Shown: positions 3,286-17,806 of the stretch, piece by piece
How positions within the stretch are numbered: the stretch's first letter is position 1
Layout: every line of letters begins with the position of its first letter
Virus record (IMG/VR): IMGVR_UViG_3300049489_001195
Span: 1 to 22,091 of that record
Strand: one strand, 5' to 3'
Source: a virus
Length of the DNA: 22,091 nt
Position numbers and translations under genes: made by a program
The notes under the pieces: generated by a model
The model's database searches: none
Told to the model about the DNA's origin: nothing
Seen by the model: only the letters and a program-made list of their open reading frames with translations

Positions 3286-4508
3286 CAGACGTCCTCCGCG
3301 ACGGTCACGTCGGCGCTCGCGATGCGGATGATCTGCCGGGTCGTCGGCGCCACGCTCGCGTCGTCGGGCGTCGGGTCGTCGGCCTCCATCGTGATCGTCG
3401 TGACGGCCTTCACGCTCGGCACGACGCGCACGCCGTCCTCGCTCTCGAGGATCGCGGCGATGAGCTGCGACACGTAGCCGCGCTCGGCGACGACGTACTC
3501 GTCGGCACGCTCCGAGACCGCCGTCTTCACCTGGGCCTCCCAGCCCGCGACTGCGTCGTCCTCGAGCACCGCCTCGAGGGACACGTAGACGCGGAGCTTC
3601 GTCGCCCGGGTGAAGCCGACGACGAACGCCGTCCCGCTCTCGTCGATGGCCGTCCCGCTGTCGGTCGGCCCCACGCCCTCCGCGTCGGCGCCGAAGCCCC
3701 ACGAGAGGATCCCCTCCGGCTTCGTGTCGTAGATCGCCTGAGCGATCTCGTCGTCGAGGGCCGCCGCAGGGTCCCCGTCCCAGACGATGACCTCGAAGCT
3801 CTTGCCGGGCCGGCCGGCACCGTCGGTGACCGAGGTCGAGTTCTCGATGACCGTCACCGAGATCACGCCATCGACCCGGGCGACGTTCGCGCGGATGGCG
3901 TCGACCGTGCGGAGCCCCCCCGCCGCCAGCTCGACCACGCGCTGCGTCCGGAGCTCCGGATCCCCGGCGACGTCGCGCCCGAGGGTCGCGTCAGTGGCGT
4001 TCGTGATCGCCGTCCAACCCGACGACGCCGTCACGATCACGGTGAGCAGGCCGGCAGGAGCCGCGATCGGGCCGGTGCGCAGGCACTCGAAGACGACGTC
4101 GAACGCCGCCGGCGACGCGCCGCTGTTCGTCACGGCCTCGACGCTCGCGAACTGCGCATCCGGATCGCCGTCCACCGCCGCCACCTTGCCCGCCGCGAGC
4201 GTCGCTCCGGCCGCGAGCGTCACCGACGCTGTCACCCTCGAGGCCGTCGCCGCCCGTCGGGTGGTCCCGGTGAGCGCCGCGACCTGGTCGAGCGCGAGGC
4301 CCGACGCCTCCGGGCCCTGCGCGCGGTAGATCGCCTGCAGCGTCTCCCACGCGAGCGTGAGCTCCTCGGAGAGGATGCCGATGATCTGCTGCTCGGGGCC
4401 CTGGCTGAGGTCGATGCCGGGGATCGCCGCGCGCACCGTCGCCTCGAGCAGCTCCTGGAGCTCGGGCTGCGTCCGGATCACGAGACCGTTGGCGGAAAGG
4501 CCGGCCAT
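3285..4508 (-). CDS. Baseplate J-like protein, 407 aa
   Basis: This is a baseplate wedge component of the contractile tail, of the P2 gpJ / T4 gp6 type. It begins MAGLSANGLVIRTQPELQELL, the usual J-family start with an N-terminal helical segment. SQGPEQQIIGILSEELTLAWE, about residues 35-55, corresponds to the conserved family helix near the N-terminus. The middle has repeated Ala/Val/Thr-rich beta segments, then DPELRTQRVVELAAGGLRTVDAIRANVARVDGV, a well-known J-family motif (about residues 175-210). The length fits the usual 350-480 aa. The ATG at 4508 is in a TGATG junction with the gp25-like gene, and its own stop overlaps the gpI-like start. Confidence 0.92.
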   Translation of the reverse strand: MAGLSANGLVIRTQPELQELLEATVRAAIPGIDLSQGPEQQIIGILSEELTLAWETLQAIYRAQGPEASGLALDQVAALTGTTRRAATASRVTASVTLAAGATLAAGKVAAVDGDPDAQFASVEAVTNSGASPAAFDVVFECLRTGPIAAPAGLLTVIVTASSGWTAITNATDATLGRDVAGDPELRTQRVVELAAGGLRTVDAIRANVARVDGVISVTVIENSTSVTDGAGRPGKSFEVIVWDGDPAAALDDEIAQAIYDTKPEGILSWGFGADAEGVGPTDSGTAIDESGTAFVVGFTRATKLRVYVSLEAVLEDDAVAGWEAQVKTAVSERADEYVVAERGYVSQLIAAILESEDGVRVVPSVKAVTTITMEADDPTPDDASVAPTTRQIIRIASADVTVAEDV

Positions 4509-5589: not shown

Positions 5590-6446
5590 GCCGCCCGCAG
5601 CTCCGCGTCCGCGTACCAGTTCTGCTGGTGCGAATCGCCGTCGAAGACCACCGAGCGCACGAGGAACGGCCCGCTCAGCCGATCGTGGTCGAGCACCACC
5701 GTGCGCCCCGGCCAGATGTCGGGCGTGAGGAGCGACTTCACCTTCGCGCGGCCGCGCATTCCGCGCTCCGGCTCGCCGACGAGGCCGGTGTCCGTCGCGA
5801 GGCGCACGGCCTCGGACCGGAGCGCGGCGCCCGACGCGAGGACCTGCAGCGCCCCGTGCTGGATCGACCAGCTCAGGCCGAAACTCGAGAGCACCCTCGT
5901 GAGCTCGCGCGCCGCCGGGCCCGAGAGGACGGTCCCCTCCGGGAACGTGGCATCGGCACCCCCGGCGACGGCCGCCGCGATCGCCTCCGCGGTGTTGCCG
6001 ATGCCGACTCCCAGGCCCTCCGCGCACGACCGCACGACCGCGGTCACGCTGACGCCGGCCGCGAACGACGAGCTCACGCGACGCTGCTGGAAGTGCTCCC
6101 CGCCGTCGCGCCCCTCGATCACCGATACGGCATCGACGCGGTTCTCGACGTCGGTCCGGTTCGCGCGCTGCGAGAAGCCCGTGCCGCCGCCGGCGCCGCG
6201 GAAGACGTGCCCACGGAAGAGCTGCTCGAGCCCGCGCGCCTCGGAGTAGCCCGCCTCGACGACGAGCTGCTGCCCGACCGACTGCTCGATCTGCGCCTGC
6301 TGGCTGCGGGTGAGGTTCCAGATCTTGACGACCGCCTTGCCCGGTCGGGCGTGCAGCGTGCGCTCGATGTGGAACGCGACGCGGATCGGCGCCGAGACGC
6401 GGAGCGTCCCGACCGTCACCCGCCAGACGCGGCCGAACGAGGTCAC
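5586..6446 (-). CDS. Baseplate hub protein (gp27/gpD-like), 286 aa
   Basis: This probably forms the trimeric hub ring at the base of the tail tube, carrying the spike. It starts with GTG at 6446, whose GTGA overlaps the stop of the plug gene. The N-terminal part, VAFHIERTLHARPGKAVVKIWNLTRSQQAQIE, is the typical opening of such hub proteins: a strand pair then K-x-x-V-x-I-x-N-L. It continues with an oily VVEAGYSEA..LEQLFRGHVF segment (about 62-85). Near the end, IWPGRTVVLDHDRLSGPFLVRSVVFDGDSHQQNW matches the usual final strands with a W/Y-rich close. Its place between plug and spike supports the assignment. No hydrolase motif is visible. Confidence 0.85.
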   Translation of the reverse strand: MTSFGRVWRVTVGTLRVSAPIRVAFHIERTLHARPGKAVVKIWNLTRSQQAQIEQSVGQQLVVEAGYSEARGLEQLFRGHVFRGAGGGTGFSQRANRTDVENRVDAVSVIEGRDGGEHFQQRRVSSSFAAGVSVTAVVRSCAEGLGVGIGNTAEAIAAAVAGGADATFPEGTVLSGPAARELTRVLSSFGLSWSIQHGALQVLASGAALRSEAVRLATDTGLVGEPERGMRGRAKVKSLLTPDIWPGRTVVLDHDRLSGPFLVRSVVFDGDSHQQNWYADAELRAA

Positions 6447-9665: not shown

Positions 9666-10115
9666 TCAGGCGACGGGTGAGGAGCCCTTGATCTGTGCAT
9701 CGAGCTTGCCGACGAGCTTCCACTCGTTGGCCTTCGCGCTGCGGTCGTAGGACAGGTTCGGCGGCGCCTTCACCGCGAAGAACGGCCCGCGGTAGAGCGC
9801 GCGACCGTTCCGGTCGCGGATGAAGAGCGACCGGAAGCGACGTCCGGTGCCGCCCGGGTGCCACGCGCGCCGCGCCTCCTCGAAGACGTCGTTGGCGTCC
9901 GAGGTCTGCAGCACCTTCACCGTGATGATCACGGTGTCGTGCCCAGCGTTGCCCGAGACGACGAGCTCGCCGCTCGTGCCGGTGACGTGCTCGACGTTCG
10001 CGTTCTCGAACTCGATCGTGAGGAACTCGCCGTCGGCGGTCCCCTTGTTGATGTCCCGGCCGCCGAAGTCCATCGTGACCTCGTCGGCGTTCAGCTGCTT
10101 CGTCTCGCCCGACAT
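9666..10115 (-). CDS. Tail tube protein (DUF3277-type), 149 aa
   Basis: This is the inner tube subunit of the contractile tail. The ATG at 10115 follows GAGGAGG at good spacing. Near the N-terminus, EVTMDFGGRDINKGTADGEFLTIEF matches the DUF3277 opening: strand, FGG, I/D, G-x-ADG-x-F, strand. VSGNAGHDTVIITVKVLQTSDANDVFEEA (about 55-83) matches the family segment with T-x-x-L-Q-T-S-x-x-N. The length is normal for the family. It lies straight after the sheath gene, as in other contractile tails. High expression is expected, and the strong ribosome binding site agrees. Confidence 0.9.
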   Translation of the reverse strand: MSGETKQLNADEVTMDFGGRDINKGTADGEFLTIEFENANVEHVTGTSGELVVSGNAGHDTVIITVKVLQTSDANDVFEEARRAWHPGGTGRRFRSLFIRDRNGRALYRGPFFAVKAPPNLSYDRSAKANEWKLVGKLDAQIKGSSPVA

Positions 10116-10129
10116 GGTGGCGCCTCCTC

Positions 10130-10155
10130 AGGGTCAGGGTGCAGGGTCAGGGTGC
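10130..10155. repeat. Tandem 13-bp direct repeat at the sheath stop codon
   Basis: AGGGTCAGGGTGC occurs twice back to back on the plus strand (10130-10142 and 10143-10155). The copy at 10143-10155 contains the sheath stop codon. The other lies in the sheath-tube spacer, just before the tube gene ribosome binding site. It looks like a small replication-slippage duplication. Confidence 0.8.
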
Positions 10156-11856
10156 GACGGTGCCGCTGATGTCGAAGTGCCGGATCGCGCCCTGCACCTC
10201 GCCCCCGAAGCGCACCGAGCGGTAGCGGCGCGCCTGGCGGTCGGCCGCCTCGGTCTCCGCACGCGGCGTCGCCTGCGACGTCAGCGACGACTCGACGAGG
10301 ATGTTGTACGGCTCGCGCGCGGCGCGGAGCAGCACGTTCTGCACGACGCCGTGGTAGCGGTCGATCCCCGCATCCGTGAAGGGCACCTTCTCGGCGTTCA
10401 CGCGGAAGTCGAAGCTCGCGAGGTCGAGCTCGCTGTCGAGCCAGAGAAGACCCGTCACGACGTCGGCCCACTCGCCGCCCGAGACGAGACCACCGATCGT
10501 GATCGCCGTGCCCTCGTTCACGCCGGCCGGGATCGCCTCGACGTAGACCGTGCCGTTCTTGCCGGCGAGCGGGTCGGTCCCGGTCCCGACGATGCGGTTG
10601 ATCACGTCCTCGGAGAACGCGTCGGCCTCGATGCCGGGCAGCGTCTTGAACTCCCAGTCGGCCTGGCCGGGCACGAACGGCCCGTGCACCACGCCGAACG
10701 CGACCGCTTCGGGGAACCGGCCGTGGTTCTTCCGCGTGTGGAAGGGCTTGGTGTGGAGGTAGCCGAGGTCCTTGAGCGCGCGCGCCACGCCTTCCTCGTC
10801 GTCGGTCTCCTCGTCGCTGTCGATGTCGTGCGTGAGGAGGAGGACGGGCTCCGTCTCGGCCCACGCCGCAGCCTGGACGATCTGCGCCTCGCTCTGCGCG
10901 TCGGCGAGGATGAGACCGAACCAAGCGGCGTCCGCGTTGCGGAGGTTGGTGAGGTCGGTCGTGAGCGTCGTCCCCGGCACCGCCGTGCGGTCCTCGATCG
11001 CCCAGTTGTCGGTGAGGTCGCGCCACGCGTTCCACGCCCCTGCCGTGTCGCACGCGATGTCGACGTACGTCGTGCCGTCCGTGGCCGTGATGTCGAGGAG
11101 GCCGTCCTCGTCGAACTTGCCGCCCACGCCCATGAGGAGCGTGCCGTTCGTGCCCGACTGCGCCGGGATCGCGACGCCGGTGATCGACGACCAGAGCTTC
11201 GTGCCCGTGAGCACGGTGTTCCCGCCGTTCGGGATCAGGAAGTCCTCGGTCTGCACCCGCCCGTCCTCGTCGGTACCCGTGACGACCATCGTCGTCGCGT
11301 CCCAGTCGGCGTGGTTGTTGAGCGTGAAGGTGACGTTGCGCGGCGGCGAGATCGCCGTCTCGTCCATCACGCCGTTGAAGTCGGTCGCGTCGAGCGCCTG
11401 CGTGCCCGCCGTGCTGCCCTGCCCGCTCGCGATGATCGCGTCGGGGTCCGCGTTCACGAGGAGCGTGAGCGCCGCGGTGAGCTCGGCGACCGTCGGCGTC
11501 GAGTCGGCCGTGATCTCGAAGGTCACGCCGTGGACGGAGAACGAGTAGACCTCGGCCGCCGTCGGAGCCGACGGCGTGAGGCGCATCGACTGCGTCGGAG
11601 CGCCGGCGCGCTTGCCGACCTTGAACTGCGGCGGCCGGTCGCTGCTCGAGCAGAGCGCGACGGCCGCGAGGTAGATCGGGTGCGTCTCGGGCATCCCCAG
11701 GTCGAGGAGCTCGGACGGATCCGTGAACGTCCGCGACACCGCCGCCCAGAGAGCGTGGTAGCCGAGGATCATCGCCATCGAGAAGTTGGGGCGGCTCGAG
11801 AAGCGCGTCCGACGGACGATGCTCGAAGAGACGAAGCGCGAGAGAGACGTCGGCAT
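10147..11856 (-). CDS. Tail sheath protein (DUF3383-type), 569 aa, with inserted Ig-like domain
   Basis: This is the contractile sheath subunit. The ATG at 11856 has GAGGAG upstream. The N-terminus (SRFVSSSIVRRTRFSSRPNFSMAMILG) and the centre match the DUF3383 plan. The centre has a TVAELTAALTLLVN segment, then DLTNLRNADAAWFGLILADAQ and AAWAETEPVLLLTHDIDS. The C-terminal third (FRVNAEKVPFTDAGIDRYHGVVQNVLLRAAR) fits the conserved core where subunits interlock. Residues 169-246 form an inserted beta domain beginning ISPPR and ending in a Gly-rich stretch. This domain recurs in the capsid decoration protein of this window. The tube gene follows after 31 bp. Confidence 0.9.
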   Translation of the reverse strand: MPTSLSRFVSSSIVRRTRFSSRPNFSMAMILGYHALWAAVSRTFTDPSELLDLGMPETHPIYLAAVALCSSSDRPPQFKVGKRAGAPTQSMRLTPSAPTAAEVYSFSVHGVTFEITADSTPTVAELTAALTLLVNADPDAIIASGQGSTAGTQALDATDFNGVMDETAISPPRNVTFTLNNHADWDATTMVVTGTDEDGRVQTEDFLIPNGGNTVLTGTKLWSSITGVAIPAQSGTNGTLLMGVGGKFDEDGLLDITATDGTTYVDIACDTAGAWNAWRDLTDNWAIEDRTAVPGTTLTTDLTNLRNADAAWFGLILADAQSEAQIVQAAAWAETEPVLLLTHDIDSDEETDDEEGVARALKDLGYLHTKPFHTRKNHGRFPEAVAFGVVHGPFVPGQADWEFKTLPGIEADAFSEDVINRIVGTGTDPLAGKNGTVYVEAIPAGVNEGTAITIGGLVSGGEWADVVTGLLWLDSELDLASFDFRVNAEKVPFTDAGIDRYHGVVQNVLLRAAREPYNILVESSLTSQATPRAETEAADRQARRYRSVRFGGEVQGAIRHFDISGTVAP

Positions 11857-11859
11857 GGC

Positions 11860-12465
11860 TTAGGGCTCCTCGGGCAGGGAATCGATCTGCAGCGAGTCCC
11901 CCAGGACATCGCCGCCAGCGCTGGTGATCTGGCCAGCGCCGAGCTCGTCGAACGACGTGACCTGCGCCTCCTCGATGAACTCGATCGGCGCATCGGCATC
12001 GACGACGCCGTAGCTGATCGTGACGTCCAGCGCGGCGCCGCTCCGGAGGCGCGAGCTCTGCTCGACGTCCAGCGTGACGACGTCGGCGATCCGGACGATG
12101 CCGACGCCGAGCGCTCGGAGCTGCGCGAGCACGCTCGGGAACCGGAGGCGGGTCCGGAGGCGGGACGCGTACACGCGCGCGCTCTCCTCGAGCTTCTGGC
12201 TCGGCGACCACACCGACACCTGCAGCGTCTGCTCGCGCAGGCCGTAGACCGTCGGGATGACCTCGGTCGGCACGTCGGACGGGGTCGCGACGTACGCGAC
12301 CTCGTCGACGCCCAGGCCGATCTCGCCGAGGAAGTCGACCACCGCGCTCGCGCCGACGACGACCTGCTGCGGCTCGCCCCGAAGCGCGCAGGGGATCTCC
12401 ATCGCCGCGGCGAAGATCGCCGCGATGCCGGTCGTCGCGTGGCCCATCGCTGCGTACGTGGCCAT
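11860..12465 (-). CDS. Neck/tail terminator protein, LIC_12616-like, 201 aa
   Basis: It probably caps the tail and joins it to the head connector. The start ATG at 12465 overlaps the preceding stop (TGATG); the stop is 3 bp before the sheath start. The middle (VIPTVYGLREQTLQVSVWSPSQKLEESARVYASRLRTRL) fits neck terminator proteins of the gp12/LIC_12616 type: strand, L-Q-V-S-V-W-S, helix. A further IADVVTLDVEQSSRLRSGAALDVTISYGV resembles the family's closing strands. The order HK97-gp10-like, this gene, then sheath is the conserved connector order. The N-terminal Ala-rich segment is less typical. Confidence 0.78.
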   Translation of the reverse strand: MATYAAMGHATTGIAAIFAAAMEIPCALRGEPQQVVVGASAVVDFLGEIGLGVDEVAYVATPSDVPTEVIPTVYGLREQTLQVSVWSPSQKLEESARVYASRLRTRLRFPSVLAQLRALGVGIVRIADVVTLDVEQSSRLRSGAALDVTISYGVVDADAPIEFIEEAQVTSFDELGAGQITSAGGDVLGDSLQIDSLPEEP

Positions 12466-12920
12466 CAGCCGGCCTCCGCCACGATGCGTCCGCCGACCCG
12501 GCCCTCGATCGACTCCTCGAGGTGACCGGTGTCGCGGAGGCCGATGCGCCGCACCGTCGCCCGGACGAGCCGCTGCGCGCGAGCGGCCACCCGTCCGAGG
12601 GCGCGCTCGACGTGGCCCGTGTCCGAGCTGCCGTACATCGCGCTCTTGAGCGCGCGCTGCGCCGCCTGGCTCAGTGCCTTCTCGAGCTCGGGGCGCTTAT
12701 GGTCGATCGTCGAGCGCAGGAACGACTTCGGGCCCGCCGTCGGAGAGCTCCCGAACTCGGTCACGCCGGCGACCGTCGCGACCGTCGCCCTCGTCGGACC
12801 GCGGTGCTCCTGCGCGCCGGTGTCCTCGTGGACGCCGACGGTCACGCGCGGTGGGTTCGCGAGATCCCGGAGCGCGGCCTCGAGGCGGGCCATGCCGCGA
12901 TCGCGATCGATGGCGCTCAT
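12465..12920 (-). CDS. HK97 gp10-like head-tail connector/tail completion protein, 151 aa
   Basis: The ATG at 12920 overlaps the DUF4054 gene stop (ATGA). The segment VATVAGVTEFGSSPTAGPKSFLRSTID (about 48-74) is the key sign. HK97 gp10-like and related virion morphogenesis proteins carry a small-residue helix, EFG, then P-x-x-x-F-L-R. The remaining C-terminal half is helical and Arg/Ala-rich. A DTGHLEESI stretch (about 128-136) resembles the D-T-G-x-L-x-x-S-I motif seen in this family. It probably sits at the neck and aids head-tail joining. Confidence 0.82.
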   Translation of the reverse strand: MSAIDRDRGMARLEAALRDLANPPRVTVGVHEDTGAQEHRGPTRATVATVAGVTEFGSSPTAGPKSFLRSTIDHKRPELEKALSQAAQRALKSAMYGSSDTGHVERALGRVAARAQRLVRATVRRIGLRDTGHLEESIEGRVGGRIVAEAG

Positions 12921-13213
12921 TCGAGCACCGTCCGGTAGCCGAGCCCGATGCGCGCGGTGATCCGCTCGAGGGTCGCCTGGTAGGGCGTGCGCCCCTCGTC
13001 GTCGATAAGCTTCGCCTGCTGCCCGAACGGCGAGCGGGCGAGGGCATCGGCGGCCTTGAGGCGCTGGACGCGATCGGCCTCCGTGCCGCACGCCGTCGCG
13101 TCCACCTCCGCCAGGGCGTCGGCGAGCGCGGTCGTCACCATCGCCGGATTCGACGCGTGGAGCGCGGCGAACTCGGGATGCTGCTCGACGAAGCTGGCGG
13201 CGGAGACGGTCAC
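12917..13213 (-). CDS. DUF4054 head-tail adaptor, 98 aa
   Basis: The product is a small all-helical connector protein. The GTG at 13213 starts MTVSAASFVEQHPEFAALHASNP, the usual DUF4054 opening, where F-x-x-x-x-P-E-F is conserved. It continues with VTTALADALAEVDAT, ADRVQRLKAADALARSPFG, and TPYQATLERITARIGLGYRTV, three further helices as expected for an adaptor that plugs onto the portal. No strong Shine-Dalgarno sequence precedes the GTG. Earlier in-frame codons include no ATG, GTG or TTG back to the preceding gene, so this start is the best available. Confidence 0.82.
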   Translation of the reverse strand: MTVSAASFVEQHPEFAALHASNPAMVTTALADALAEVDATACGTEADRVQRLKAADALARSPFGQQAKLIDDEGRTPYQATLERITARIGLGYRTVLE

Positions 13214-13257
13214 GGCGTGTCGATCGGTCGGCTGGATCCTGGTGCGGTGCGGTGAGA

Positions 13258-13692
13258 TCAGCCGTTGCGCGTGGAGCGCATCGGCTTGTCGTCGGTCTTG
13301 GCGTCGGCCGTGGCGGCGGCCTTGAGCCGCGCCTCGAGCTCGGCGATGCGCGCCGAGAGGTCGCTCTCGATGGCCGCGGCGCGGGCCTCGGCGGAGCGCG
13401 CGGCCTTGGCGGCCTGCGAGAGCCGGGCCTCGATCTCGGCCTCCGACGGCAGCGCGATCTTGGTGCCTCCGTCGGTGACGGAGATCCCGTCGCGACGACG
13501 GTTGAAGACGGGCTTGAGGCCCTTCTCCGCGAGCAGCGCCGCGAAGTACCAGTCGGGCACCTCGATCTTCGGCGCGGGCGCGCCCTTCGCGGGCGCGTCC
13601 AGCACGGGCGCGCGGTACGCCTTCCCGTCCGGACCCATGCGCATCGGGAAGCTCCACGCGCGCTGGCTGCTGTCGTTGATGAGCGTGACCAT
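13258..13692 (-). CDS. Uncharacterised structural-module protein, 144 aa
   Basis: I do not recognise this protein with confidence. The ATG at 13692 follows GAGGAG, a strong ribosome binding site. The first 75 residues look like a small beta domain: MVTLINDSSQRAWSFPMRMG, a central VPDWYFAALLAEKGL segment, and a closing DGISV. This resembles short phage proteins that present a folded N-terminus. Residues 82-128 are Ala/Glu/Arg-rich with a heptad-like pattern (SEAEIEARLSQAAKAAR..), so a coiled coil is likely. It lies between the capsid gene and the connector genes. It could be a minor capsid or head-completion factor. Confidence 0.7.
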   Translation of the reverse strand: MVTLINDSSQRAWSFPMRMGPDGKAYRAPVLDAPAKGAPAPKIEVPDWYFAALLAEKGLKPVFNRRRDGISVTDGGTKIALPSEAEIEARLSQAAKAARSAEARAAAIESDLSARIAELEARLKAAATADAKTDDKPMRSTRNG

Positions 13693-13705
13693 CGTCGATC
13701 TCCTC

Positions 13706-13724
13706 GAGGCGTTCCTGACGCCTC
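13706..13724 (-). other. Perfect 7-bp hairpin upstream of the 144-aa protein gene
   Basis: On the minus strand GAGGCGT and ACGCCTC enclose a 5-nt loop (CAGGA). The ribosome binding site GAGGAG lies a few bases after it. It is the second of two hairpins in the 89-bp spacer after the capsid gene. No T-tract follows, so it is not a standard intrinsic terminator. Confidence 0.7.
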
Positions 13725-13725
13725 A

Positions 13726-13753
13726 GCCCCGCCGGGAACTTGTCCGACGGGGC
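13726..13753 (-). other. 10-bp GC-rich hairpin after the major capsid gene
   Basis: On the minus strand GCCCCGTCGG pairs with CCGGCGGGGC around an 8-nt loop, with one U-G pair. It begins 28 nt after the capsid stop. There is no U-tract after it. It could protect the capsid message 3' end, give partial termination, or be an RNA processing site. Confidence 0.72.
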
Positions 13754-13781
13754 GAGGTGACCGAACGCGCTGGGCGCCGGC

Positions 13782-14912
13782 TCAGTCGAGGTTCTGGACG
13801 TACAGCATCAGCTTCGGCTGACGCACCTCCACGCCGCCGCAGCGCGAGCGGGCGTTCACGAGCCACTCGAGGTTGCGCACCTCGGGCGGGCTCTCCTCGT
13901 ACTGGATCGAGAACGGCCAGAAGAGGACGTTCGGATCCGCCTTGAGACCGCCGCCGGGGCCGGTCGGGTAGAGGATGCCCATCGGCGCGTCGCTCGCCGC
14001 GACGTCGGGGGTGACCGCGTCGTCGAGCTTCACCCAGCGGACGATGTCCTTGATGATCCGCGCGTTGCGCAGGAAGTACTGCTTCACCGAGAGGTCGGTG
14101 ACGGTGCTGCCACCGACGGGCAGCGTCGCGAGGCGCCCCTCGTACGCCGTCGGCAGCACGAGGACGTAGCCCCCGGGCTGGTTGTCGCGCGCGGCGGCGA
14201 TGACCGTCTGCTCGAGCTCCGCGAGGTCGGCGAGGATGTTCGCGACGCTCTCGGTGAGCCACTCGCCCTGCGTGAGCGTGTGCAGCGTGACGCCGGCGTT
14301 GTTGAAGAAGCCCGTGAGCCCGGCGCCCGCGTCGCCGCTGCGGCCGATCTTGTCGAGCTTCCGCGCGATCGCGTTGCCGCACGCGACGGCCTTGTCGCGC
14401 ACGAGCGGGACGCCGGCGAGCGCCGCCGCCTCGAGCTCGTCGACGCTGTAGGCGTAGGCCGCCCGGACGTTGACGTACTTGTTGAGGTCCTCGCTCGCCG
14501 ACACGTCCACGCGCGGCGCGTCGCCCGCGAGGTCGTGCGTGACCGCCGCCTCGCCGCGCTCGTCCATGATGCGCGTCGAGTACGACTTCGCGCCGCGGGC
14601 GTGGCCGCCCTCGACCGGCACGAACTCCGCCGCGCGGAGCGCGTCGTAGATCACCCGCTCGACGGTCGCGCGCTGGAAGACGAGCTCCCGCGCGAGGAAC
14701 GCCGAGTAGTTCGCGTCCGTCCGGACGCGATCCTCGAGGCCCGGCATCTCGCGCAGGATGCGCAGGTTGCGCTCGACGAGCGCGTGGTTGCGCTCGAGGT
14801 AGGCGGCGTCCTGGCGCGCGGTGCGTGCCGCGAGGGCCTGGCGGTGCATCGGCGTGCCGACGACGTAGTCGGTGCCGTCGACGCGCTCGGTGCGGGGCTG
14901 GAGATCCATCAT
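13782..14912 (-). CDS. Major capsid protein (DUF2184 family), 376 aa
   Basis: This is the main shell protein, expected to have an HK97 fold. The start ATG at 14912 (or the adjacent ATG at 14909) follows GAGAGG. The N-terminal 60 residues are charged and helical. The core includes ELVFQRATVERVIYDALRAAEFVPVEGGHARGAKSYSTRIMDERGEA (about 75-121) and later SASEDLNKYVNVRAAYAYSVDELEAAALAGVPL (about 137-169). Both fit DUF2184 capsids, where a 'Y-x-Y-x-x-x-E-L' helix is typical. The C-terminal FWPFSIQYEESPPEVRNLEWLVNARSRCGGVEVRQPKLMLY matches the P-domain end. It is followed by a hairpin-bearing spacer, which fits its need for high expression. Confidence 0.88.
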   Translation of the reverse strand: MMDLQPRTERVDGTDYVVGTPMHRQALAARTARQDAAYLERNHALVERNLRILREMPGLEDRVRTDANYSAFLARELVFQRATVERVIYDALRAAEFVPVEGGHARGAKSYSTRIMDERGEAAVTHDLAGDAPRVDVSASEDLNKYVNVRAAYAYSVDELEAAALAGVPLVRDKAVACGNAIARKLDKIGRSGDAGAGLTGFFNNAGVTLHTLTQGEWLTESVANILADLAELEQTVIAAARDNQPGGYVLVLPTAYEGRLATLPVGGSTVTDLSVKQYFLRNARIIKDIVRWVKLDDAVTPDVAASDAPMGILYPTGPGGGLKADPNVLFWPFSIQYEESPPEVRNLEWLVNARSRCGGVEVRQPKLMLYVQNLD

Positions 14913-14970
14913 CGGGAGCCTCTCGGTAGGGGGACGGGACGTGCTGCTCAGGTGCCGGCGCGTGCGCCGC

Positions 14971-15825
14971 TCAGGTGAAGTCGACCTCGAGGACGCCGAG
15001 CTCGCCGGCGCTCCCGCTCGAGATGAGGCGCGCGCGCTTGCACGGCGCGGCGTCGCCGCTGTCGGTCGTCTGGACGCGGAAGCCGCCCAGCGCCTCGGCG
15101 CCGGCCGCGACCAGGCGCACGAGCACCACGTCGCCCGCGCGGAACGCGTTCTCGACGGTGACGAAGATCCGGCCCTTGCGGAGCACGGGCATCTGGTCGG
15201 AGTCCTCGTAGTTCTCGTTGTTCGAGCTCGAGGGGGTGATGAGGCCCTTCTGCGTCCGGACGCTCACGCCCATGACGTCGCCGCCCTCGAGCGAGACGCC
15301 GCTCACGCCGGCGACGCCGATCGCCGTGGTGCCGCCGGTCCCGCCCTGCGCCGGGATCGTCAGCGACGTGAAGTAGCTGTAGAAGAGCGTGCTCGTGAGC
15401 ACCTCGCCGCCCACGTCGGCGAAGGCGATGTTCTCGGTCACCGGCAGGCCGTTCTCGTCGAGGCCGGCCAGGACGGCCGTCACGGCGTCCTGGTTCGCGT
15501 GCGACGAGCGCGTGATCGTGATCTTGCGCGGCGGGCTGATGCGGCCGAGCGCGATGACGCCGTCCGCCTCCGTGTCGAGGACCTGCTGCGACGCGGAGGT
15601 CGCCAGCGCGACCAGGATCGCGTCGTCGTCCGCCGCGACCGCCGCCGGCGTCGAGACCGCGCGGTCGCCCCCCGACGTGCGCATCACCAGGAGCCCGGGC
15701 TCGATGGAGCTCCCCGGCGTTCCGTGGTCGACCACGGTCGAGACGATCTCGTTGAACGCCTCGTCGGCCAGGAGGCCGGGGTAGGCCTTGGCGGGGTCGG
15801 CGGTGAAGCTGGTCTGGGTGGCCAT
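14971..15825 (-). CDS. Capsid decoration / structural cement protein with Ig-like domain, 284 aa
   Basis: It lies between the protease/scaffold gene and the capsid gene, the usual place for a decoration or cement protein. Residues about 213-284 (PVLRKGRIFVTVENAFRAGDVVLVRL... to the end) match the cement-protein plan: G-R-I-x-V, then a long strand pair, then a terminal GxLGVLEVDF. The N-terminal FTADPAKAYPGLLADEAFN is also typical of these proteins. Residues 96-173 form a beta domain that is also in the tail sheath of this window, aligned without gaps. The ATG at 15825 has AAAGAG upstream. The domain probably projects from the capsid surface, which is an inference. Confidence 0.8.
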   Translation of the reverse strand: MATQTSFTADPAKAYPGLLADEAFNEIVSTVVDHGTPGSSIEPGLLVMRTSGGDRAVSTPAAVAADDDAILVALATSASQQVLDTEADGVIALGRISPPRKITITRSSHANQDAVTAVLAGLDENGLPVTENIAFADVGGEVLTSTLFYSYFTSLTIPAQGGTGGTTAIGVAGVSGVSLEGGDVMGVSVRTQKGLITPSSSNNENYEDSDQMPVLRKGRIFVTVENAFRAGDVVLVRLVAAGAEALGGFRVQTTDSGDAAPCKRARLISSGSAGELGVLEVDFT

Positions 15826-17203: not shown

Positions 17204-17806
17204 TCAGCCGGCCATGATGCTCACAAGCAACCCGACCGAGCGGAAGCCGAGCCCACGGATCTGAATCACATCGCCGAAGGTGCTGGCTCTTTGTGCGAGC
17301 CCTATACGCCGCCACGTTCCTACGACGGTCCGCACTCGATCGACGGCGCGCGCCTCCTCGGCGGTTCTCGAGAGGACGCGCCCGAGATCGTCATCGCTTG
17401 GAAACGCCTCCCCCGCGATCATCTTCAAGAGAGTCAGCGCGCGTTCGGGCGTCGGTGCTGCGCGGAATCGGTCGAGCGCTGGTCGAACGAACGCTGGCAA
17501 CGAGAGCGTCGGAGCGCGCGCCGGCGACGAACTCTCAGCGGACGCGTCTGAGCGCGGCGGCGGAGACTCGCCGCACAACGCTGACGCGAGCTCGTCCGAG
17601 TTCAGGTCGAACCACTCGCCTCGCACTCGGCGAGCGTCGAAGAGTCGGTGCAGCCGCGCCTCCTCCGATCTGTCGCCGGGGAGCGTGCCGACCAGATCGA
17701 GCCGACTCGGCGAGCCGGTCTGGAGTCCGCGCAGGCGGGCACGCGGATCGTCGGCCTTTCCGATCTTCGTGTGCCCGGTGGCGTGGCAGCGAATGAAATA
17801 GATCAC
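17204..17806 (-). CDS. GIY-YIG nuclease-like protein (MUG113/T5orf172 type), 200 aa
   Basis: Residues 2-68 match the MUG113/T5orf172 branch of GIY-YIG nucleases. IYFIRC gives Tyr3 and GHTKIGKADD gives the KIG variant of the second motif. RARLRGLQTGSP holds the conserved Arg24. EEARLHRLF gives Glu49 and His53, and GEWFDL completes the fold (64-68). A Ser/Pro/Ala-rich linker (about 80-97) leads to a C-terminal helical domain ending IQIRGLGFRSVGLL. That end resembles the wing hairpin of OmpR-like winged-helix domains. The start is GTG at 17806 in a GTGA overlap with the RHH gene. It may be a homing-type nuclease or a DNA-cleaving accessory protein; target and activity are unknown. Confidence 0.78.
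   Translation of the reverse strand: MIYFIRCHATGHTKIGKADDPRARLRGLQTGSPSRLDLVGTLPGDRSEEARLHRLFDARRVRGEWFDLNSDELASALCGESPPPRSDASAESSSPARAPTLSLPAFVRPALDRFRAAPTPERALTLLKMIAGEAFPSDDDLGRVLSRTAEEARAVDRVRTVVGTWRRIGLAQRASTFGDVIQIRGLGFRSVGLLVSIMAG

Follow-up and report, generated by a model that had tools for sequence, protein, structure and literature searches.

It is well known that phage heads and tails carry accessory beta domains and that these are exchanged horizontally (PMC8718954, PMC11821841). In T5, Ig-like domains decorate the capsid decoration protein and the tail tube alike, and for Ig-like accessory domains of virions weak binding to sugars of the cell surface has been proposed (PMC8718954, PMC11821841). 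Those of T4 Hoc, T5 pb10 and pb6, lambda gpV and Sf14 gp20 are non-essential beta domains carried on head or tail. Contractile tails have additions of their own: a survey of sheath proteins places their additional domains away from the tail tube and proposes that they act as adhesins or stabilisers (PMC9230969). On the head, the E217 cement protein gp24 forms trimers that protrude from the capsid at the three-fold axes (PMC10329688). Work on such domains has usually dealt with single proteins, and what the domains do is mostly a matter of conjecture.

We analyzed a viral stretch of 22,091 nt, IMG/VR record IMGVR_UViG_3300049489_001195 (the window), in which a tail sheath gene and a capsid cement gene, both on the minus strand, carry copies of one inserted module, here module A. 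We liken module A to the Ig-like virion domains listed above, with several differences. The two copies in the window are clear sequence homologues, they are internal inserts rather than terminal appendages, they match no Ig family, and their carriers are a cement and a sheath. T4 Hoc is a separate decoration protein made of a capsid-binding domain and a string of Ig domains, whereas module A is internal to the cement itself. Like the additional sheath domains of the survey, module A is beta-rich, is added to a sheath core and invites proposals of adhesion or stability; unlike the phage in the window, no phage in the consulted parts of that survey is reported to repeat its sheath domain in a protein of the head (PMC9230969). 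Searches of the open-access literature brought up no account of a cement and a sheath with inserted homologous copies of one module, nor of a convergent second case. What seems new is the homologous module in both proteins, while decoration of phage virions by accessory domains was already known.

One module in two virion proteins

The virion genes of the window run in the order TerS-TerL-portal-DUF2213-cement-MCP-neck-terminator-sheath-tube, with baseplate genes next, and the order from cement to tube is conserved, being the same in relatives (Table 1). Between the portal gene and the gene for the DUF2213 protein, the structural cluster also holds a gene (17204-17806, minus strand) encoding a MUG113/T5orf172-domain protein; this domain is nuclease-like and often of the selfish-gene type.

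Table 1. Coordinates of module-bearing and neighboring genes in the window, and loci of module B in other phages
Feature	Position	Strand	Evidence or remark
Tail tube-like virion protein, without module	9666..10115	-	phrog_280; PF11681
Tail sheath, 569 aa, with inserted module	10147..11856	-	phrog_205 E=3e-55; PF11863 DUF3383 51.8 bits (cut-off 34.9)
Module A copy 1, sheath residues ~136-247	11116..11451	-	Profile from other phages' copies; missing in solved sheaths
Tail terminator, without module (module B found here in other phages)	11860..12465	-	PF23961 42.3 bits (cut-off 27)
Neck/tail completion protein, without module	12465..12920	-	phrog_222 E=2.5e-15
Major capsid protein; its gene lies between those of cement and sheath	13782..14912	-	PF09950 88.9 bits; phrog_264
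Capsid cement/decoration protein, 284 aa, with inserted module	14971..15825	-	PF22758 Phage_cement 69.2 bits (cut-off 27), two stretches
Module A copy 2, cement residues ~62-173	15307..15642	-	Profiles; empty site in module-less cements
Module B loci	L111, L117, L119, L127, L135, L139, L145, L149, L152, L153, L155; contigs G011-G021		

An earlier, sequence-only reading of this DNA had pointed to a 78-residue resemblance between the two proteins, and its coordinates and count hold for the minus strand, where sheath residues 169-246 (11119-11352) align without a gap to cement residues 96-173 (15307-15540), with 37 of 78 residues identical. The full-length proteins match by BLASTP at E=4e-17, and their Smith-Waterman score of 215 compares with a mean of 44 and a maximum of 75 over 1000 shuffles. 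Once the module is masked, no sheath-cement similarity is left at E<=10, bearing out the statement that the rest of the two proteins is unrelated. Profiles of other phages' copies, with the window excluded, match the sheath at residues 136-245 (E<=1e-44), and profiles match the cement at 62-172 or, with the window left out of the family profile, at 65-172 (E<=1e-32). Shuffles and family profiles together exclude a chance or low-complexity resemblance, an outcome that the reading had named as fatal to it. The 78-residue boundary, by contrast, is too short. Because the family profiles cover a longer span and module-less homologues lack that entire stretch, the inserted unit is about 112 residues long. 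Within it the motif IPAQxGTxGT is the most conserved, and the segment HADWDATT is among the conserved residues too.

The larger host protein is a contractile tail sheath by family (phrog_205/DUF3383) and by predicted fold. Its AlphaFold model (mean pLDDT 84) matches the solved sheaths of Bas63 (9mt4; Foldseek E=7.7e-24), Sf14 (9c3b) and PhiTE (9cba), and the core and N-terminal additional domain of these sheaths and of 9zdk gp76 align over their full length with the window's. In contrast to the window's sheath, the solved DUF3383-type sheaths (384-473 aa, six distinct sequences) are without the 112-residue module. Three alignments with solved sheaths place a gap exactly at the module position, where the flanking residues join directly (135/142 in 9mt4, 130/135 in 9zdk). 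Ordinary sheaths of the phrog_205 type measure about 435-455 aa, against typically about 550-570 aa for those with the module.

The smaller host protein is a capsid cement, again by family (PF22758) and predicted fold. Its core around the insert belongs with E217 gp24 and Pam3 gp6, both by sequence and in the AlphaFold model (mean pLDDT 81), for which Foldseek finds the Pam3 cement 8hdt_G (E=5.6e-7, prob 1.00, TMt 0.71) and E217 gp24 8frs_f (E=1.7e-4). The Pam3 cement (166 aa) and module-less relatives (165-180 aa) are without the module, and E217 gp24 (211 aa) is also shorter than the window's protein. The phage cements of 165-180 aa that lack the module have a cleanly empty site following the 'RLP' strand, and module-bearing ones are typically about 280 aa long. 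The module, dispensable over evolution, occupies sites of insertion in proteins of head and tail. By analogy with the solved relatives, it would face outward on both.

In sheath and cement contexts alike, AlphaFold predicts an all-beta module of eight strands. Cement strands at residues 100-106, 115-122, 128-135, 151-157 and 166-171 have sheath counterparts at 175-181, 188-195, 201-208, 224-230 and 239-244, so that the two patterns correspond when shifted by about 73 residues, close to the sequence offset; structure prediction, proposed earlier as a check, thus gives similar strand patterns in both proteins. The fold could be assigned to no known family. Searches with 45 module copies against Pfam returned no significant Ig-like family (I-set, FN3 or Big), the single Big_9 match having E=0.26, and comparison with Pfam, PHROG and PDB gave no family match and recognized no carbohydrate-binding family, which rules out the known domain families as the identity of the module. 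A structure search with the cement model gave no confident match over the module region, and a fold search among predicted viral structures yielded proteins of the cement type and no counterpart of the module. The earlier proposal therefore stands for a single module common to a head-surface and a tail-sheath protein and inserted in each, while its Ig-like label is left unproven by the searches of Pfam, PHROG and PDB.

Distribution of module A

Full-length sheath or cement used as a single-protein query against viral contigs found no relatives. We recovered them with a degenerate DNA pattern for IPAQxGTxGT, which gave 47 viral stretches, nearly all encoding the module and many of them having two copies, some 3.7 kb apart. 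In all, the module is present on about 47-50 IMG/VR contigs, most often as a sheath and cement pair 3.6-4.2 kb apart, and the pair, for which a profile search had been suggested, recurs in dozens of relatives. Both genes are readable in 47 phages, of which 19 bear the module in both, seven in the cement only, three in the sheath only and 18 in neither; the searches were partly seeded by the module, so these frequencies are biased, and co-occurrence tests on independent pairs are low in power. Close relatives can differ, the sheath of L061 having the module and those of L047 and L050 lacking it. Pair-bearing relatives of 20-46 kb, searched over their whole contigs, have exactly two copies each and no third.

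Copies also occur in other arrangements. The L021 sheath contains two exactly adjacent 114-residue copies (3710-4393, plus strand), at residues 136-249 and 250-363. Phages more distantly related have the module elsewhere. On the 185-kb contig L087 it lies in a different protein, directly downstream of the major head protein, and in MW202476 it is found in another protein near the MCP. One protein of the 195-kb contig L091 (7422-8522, plus strand) has module A twice; a module A protein on the 38-kb contig L089 (7767-8531, plus strand) shares its gene neighborhood, and the neighbors scanned at the two loci gave no PHROG family match. Since relatives exist without the module, with one carrier only and with two tandem copies, we take module A to be a plug-in domain outside the assembly core of either host protein.

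Such a pattern might also arise if recombination spread the module among virion genes at little or no benefit, the pair reflecting only the tolerance of exposed loops for insertions. Patchy presence, tandem duplication and copies in unrelated virion proteins are what this reading would lead one to expect, and horizontal exchange of Ig-like domains between phage proteins is known (Fraser 2006, as cited in PMC9230969). Yet the pair has been kept despite large divergence (identity of module copies to the one in the window's sheath is 35-57%), IPAQxGTxGT is strongly conserved, and an unrelated module has been placed independently on head and tail in the same way (see below). We regard neutral spread as unlikely.

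History of the two copies

The two copies in the window share 61% of their DNA, so their duplication is not recent. In a 60-row module tree, copies cluster by role, with 5 changes between sheath and cement against about 19 when group labels are shuffled. L027 joins the window's cement copy in one group, which in a wider sense takes in the cement copies of L048, L008 and L057; the window's sheath copy has those of the L008 and L057 sheaths as its nearest. As best partner for the sheath copy, the window's own cement copy ranks only 10th of 16. A single ancient split into sheath and cement lineages does not describe the window's clade either, as constraining its sheath copies to one group is rejected (AU p=0.02).

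The pattern differs in L094, whose two copies are sisters with support of 99/99. L041_C1 and L060_S1, which belong to one contig, are sisters in a large tree (98/89) and are not resolved in a smaller one. Identity is 50.5% within phages and 46.7% between them, with p=0.15 when L060 and L094 are left out. Judged from these trees, homogenization within a phage does occur, in L094 and probably in L060, and is not the rule; it appears to be absent from the window's history. The case of L094 suggests that the two copies are able to do the same job.

These data bear on the idea that the window's own pair results from recent duplication or gene conversion between its two genes. The sister copies of L094 and L060 indicate that such events do take place in the clade to which the window belongs. 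For the window itself, however, the DNA divergence and the low rank of the partner speak against it, and forcing the two copies to be sisters costs 10.5 log-likelihood units (AU p=0.07, short of formal rejection). We consider this origin highly improbable. The anticipated tracking of one copy by the other is thus seen in L094 and, less strongly, in L060, and not in the window, where each copy groups with same-role copies from other phages.

A second, unrelated module

Using the sheath core rather than module A as the query, we found phages with a different insert, module B, of about 88 residues, common to sheaths of 630-860 aa and cements of 260-290 aa (BLASTP E down to 2e-20). It also occurs in a head/neck protein (phrog_939) and in the tail terminator (phrog_7975; L153, L155), and the baseplate wedge (phrog_6) has two copies. 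Eight matches are spread over four virion proteins on contig G017 (L119), and six over four on G012 (L127), the fourth protein of each being called a baseplate wedge by its length and position, with the family match run on the homologue from L139. Modules A and B are not homologues (hhalign probability 0.9%). Profile comparison of module B with the sheath's own N-terminal beta-alpha domain gives a probability of 77% (E=2e-5), and this resemblance means that part of the module B story may be internal duplication within the sheath.

Cultured Rhizobium phages have module B in the sheath. The sheath of Rhizobium phage RHEph12 (MW980064; L173, 8155-10482) contains two copies and would offer a laboratory system for module B function; in the stretch examined, module B is confined to that protein.

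What the module may do

We propose that an all-beta accessory module of about 112 residues has been spliced into a loop of the trimeric head cement and into the outer additional domain of the contractile sheath. Because both are exterior proteins, each particle would display hundreds of copies across head and tail, which most likely give the two one common surface property. The favored property is weak multivalent binding to a glycan of the host surface or the environment, which would keep the particle near cells; ligand and adhesive role are both inferred. We give this explanation, a shared surface property that is most likely weak multivalent adhesion, an even chance. Recurrence over many phages and the existence of a second module argue for selection on a shared exterior property. 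On the other side, the searches recognized no carbohydrate-binding or Ig family in the module, and in most phages the copies diverge by role, their likeness within a phage being weaker than strong selection for a single ligand would predict.

The main competing function is mechanical: neighboring module copies might touch each other or the next subunit and so reinforce the head and sheath shells. One of the host proteins is already a cement (PF22758; PMC10329688), the additional sheath domains of phage 812 are proposed to stabilize the sheath disk (PMC9230969), and the inserted beta-sandwich of a YSD1 tail protein makes inter-subunit contacts (PMC8718954). Against this, one module would have to fit two unrelated sets of contacts, those of icosahedral trimers and those of a contracting helix; it is variably present among close relatives, as in the sheaths of L061 and of L047 and L050; and module B occurs in proteins of the neck and the baseplate, with yet other geometries. 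Given that the lattices of head and sheath are completely different, and that module B extends to neck and baseplate, a role that requires exposure only, be it adhesion or shielding, is more economical than one that depends on specific lattice contacts, and we judge stabilization rather unlikely.

The sharing of modules between head and tail, extended by module B to neck and baseplate, and its occurrence with two unrelated modules would make the selected trait a surface property of the whole particle. We put forward, tentatively and with less than even confidence, a broader 'uniform coat' rule for phages with this type of sheath and cement: the same module would be placed on most exterior parts (cement, neck, sheath and baseplate wedge), at least two unrelated modules would have been recruited in this way, with recombination inside the genome now and then keeping the copies alike, and the whole surface would have to present one ligand-binding or shielding activity. 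As one purified module should explain both sites, the question of adhesion versus stability is now testable, and phages that naturally have both copies, one or none are at hand for comparison.

A genome search for the host of module A matched one of 84,980 genomes, a Myxococcales MAG with a cement (L053), which hints at a host among the Myxococcota. In L053 the module and the C-terminal part of the cement lie in overlapping open reading frames of different frame (5666-6403 and 5988-6293, plus strand), a split due either to a frameshift in the sequencing or to decay of a prophage.
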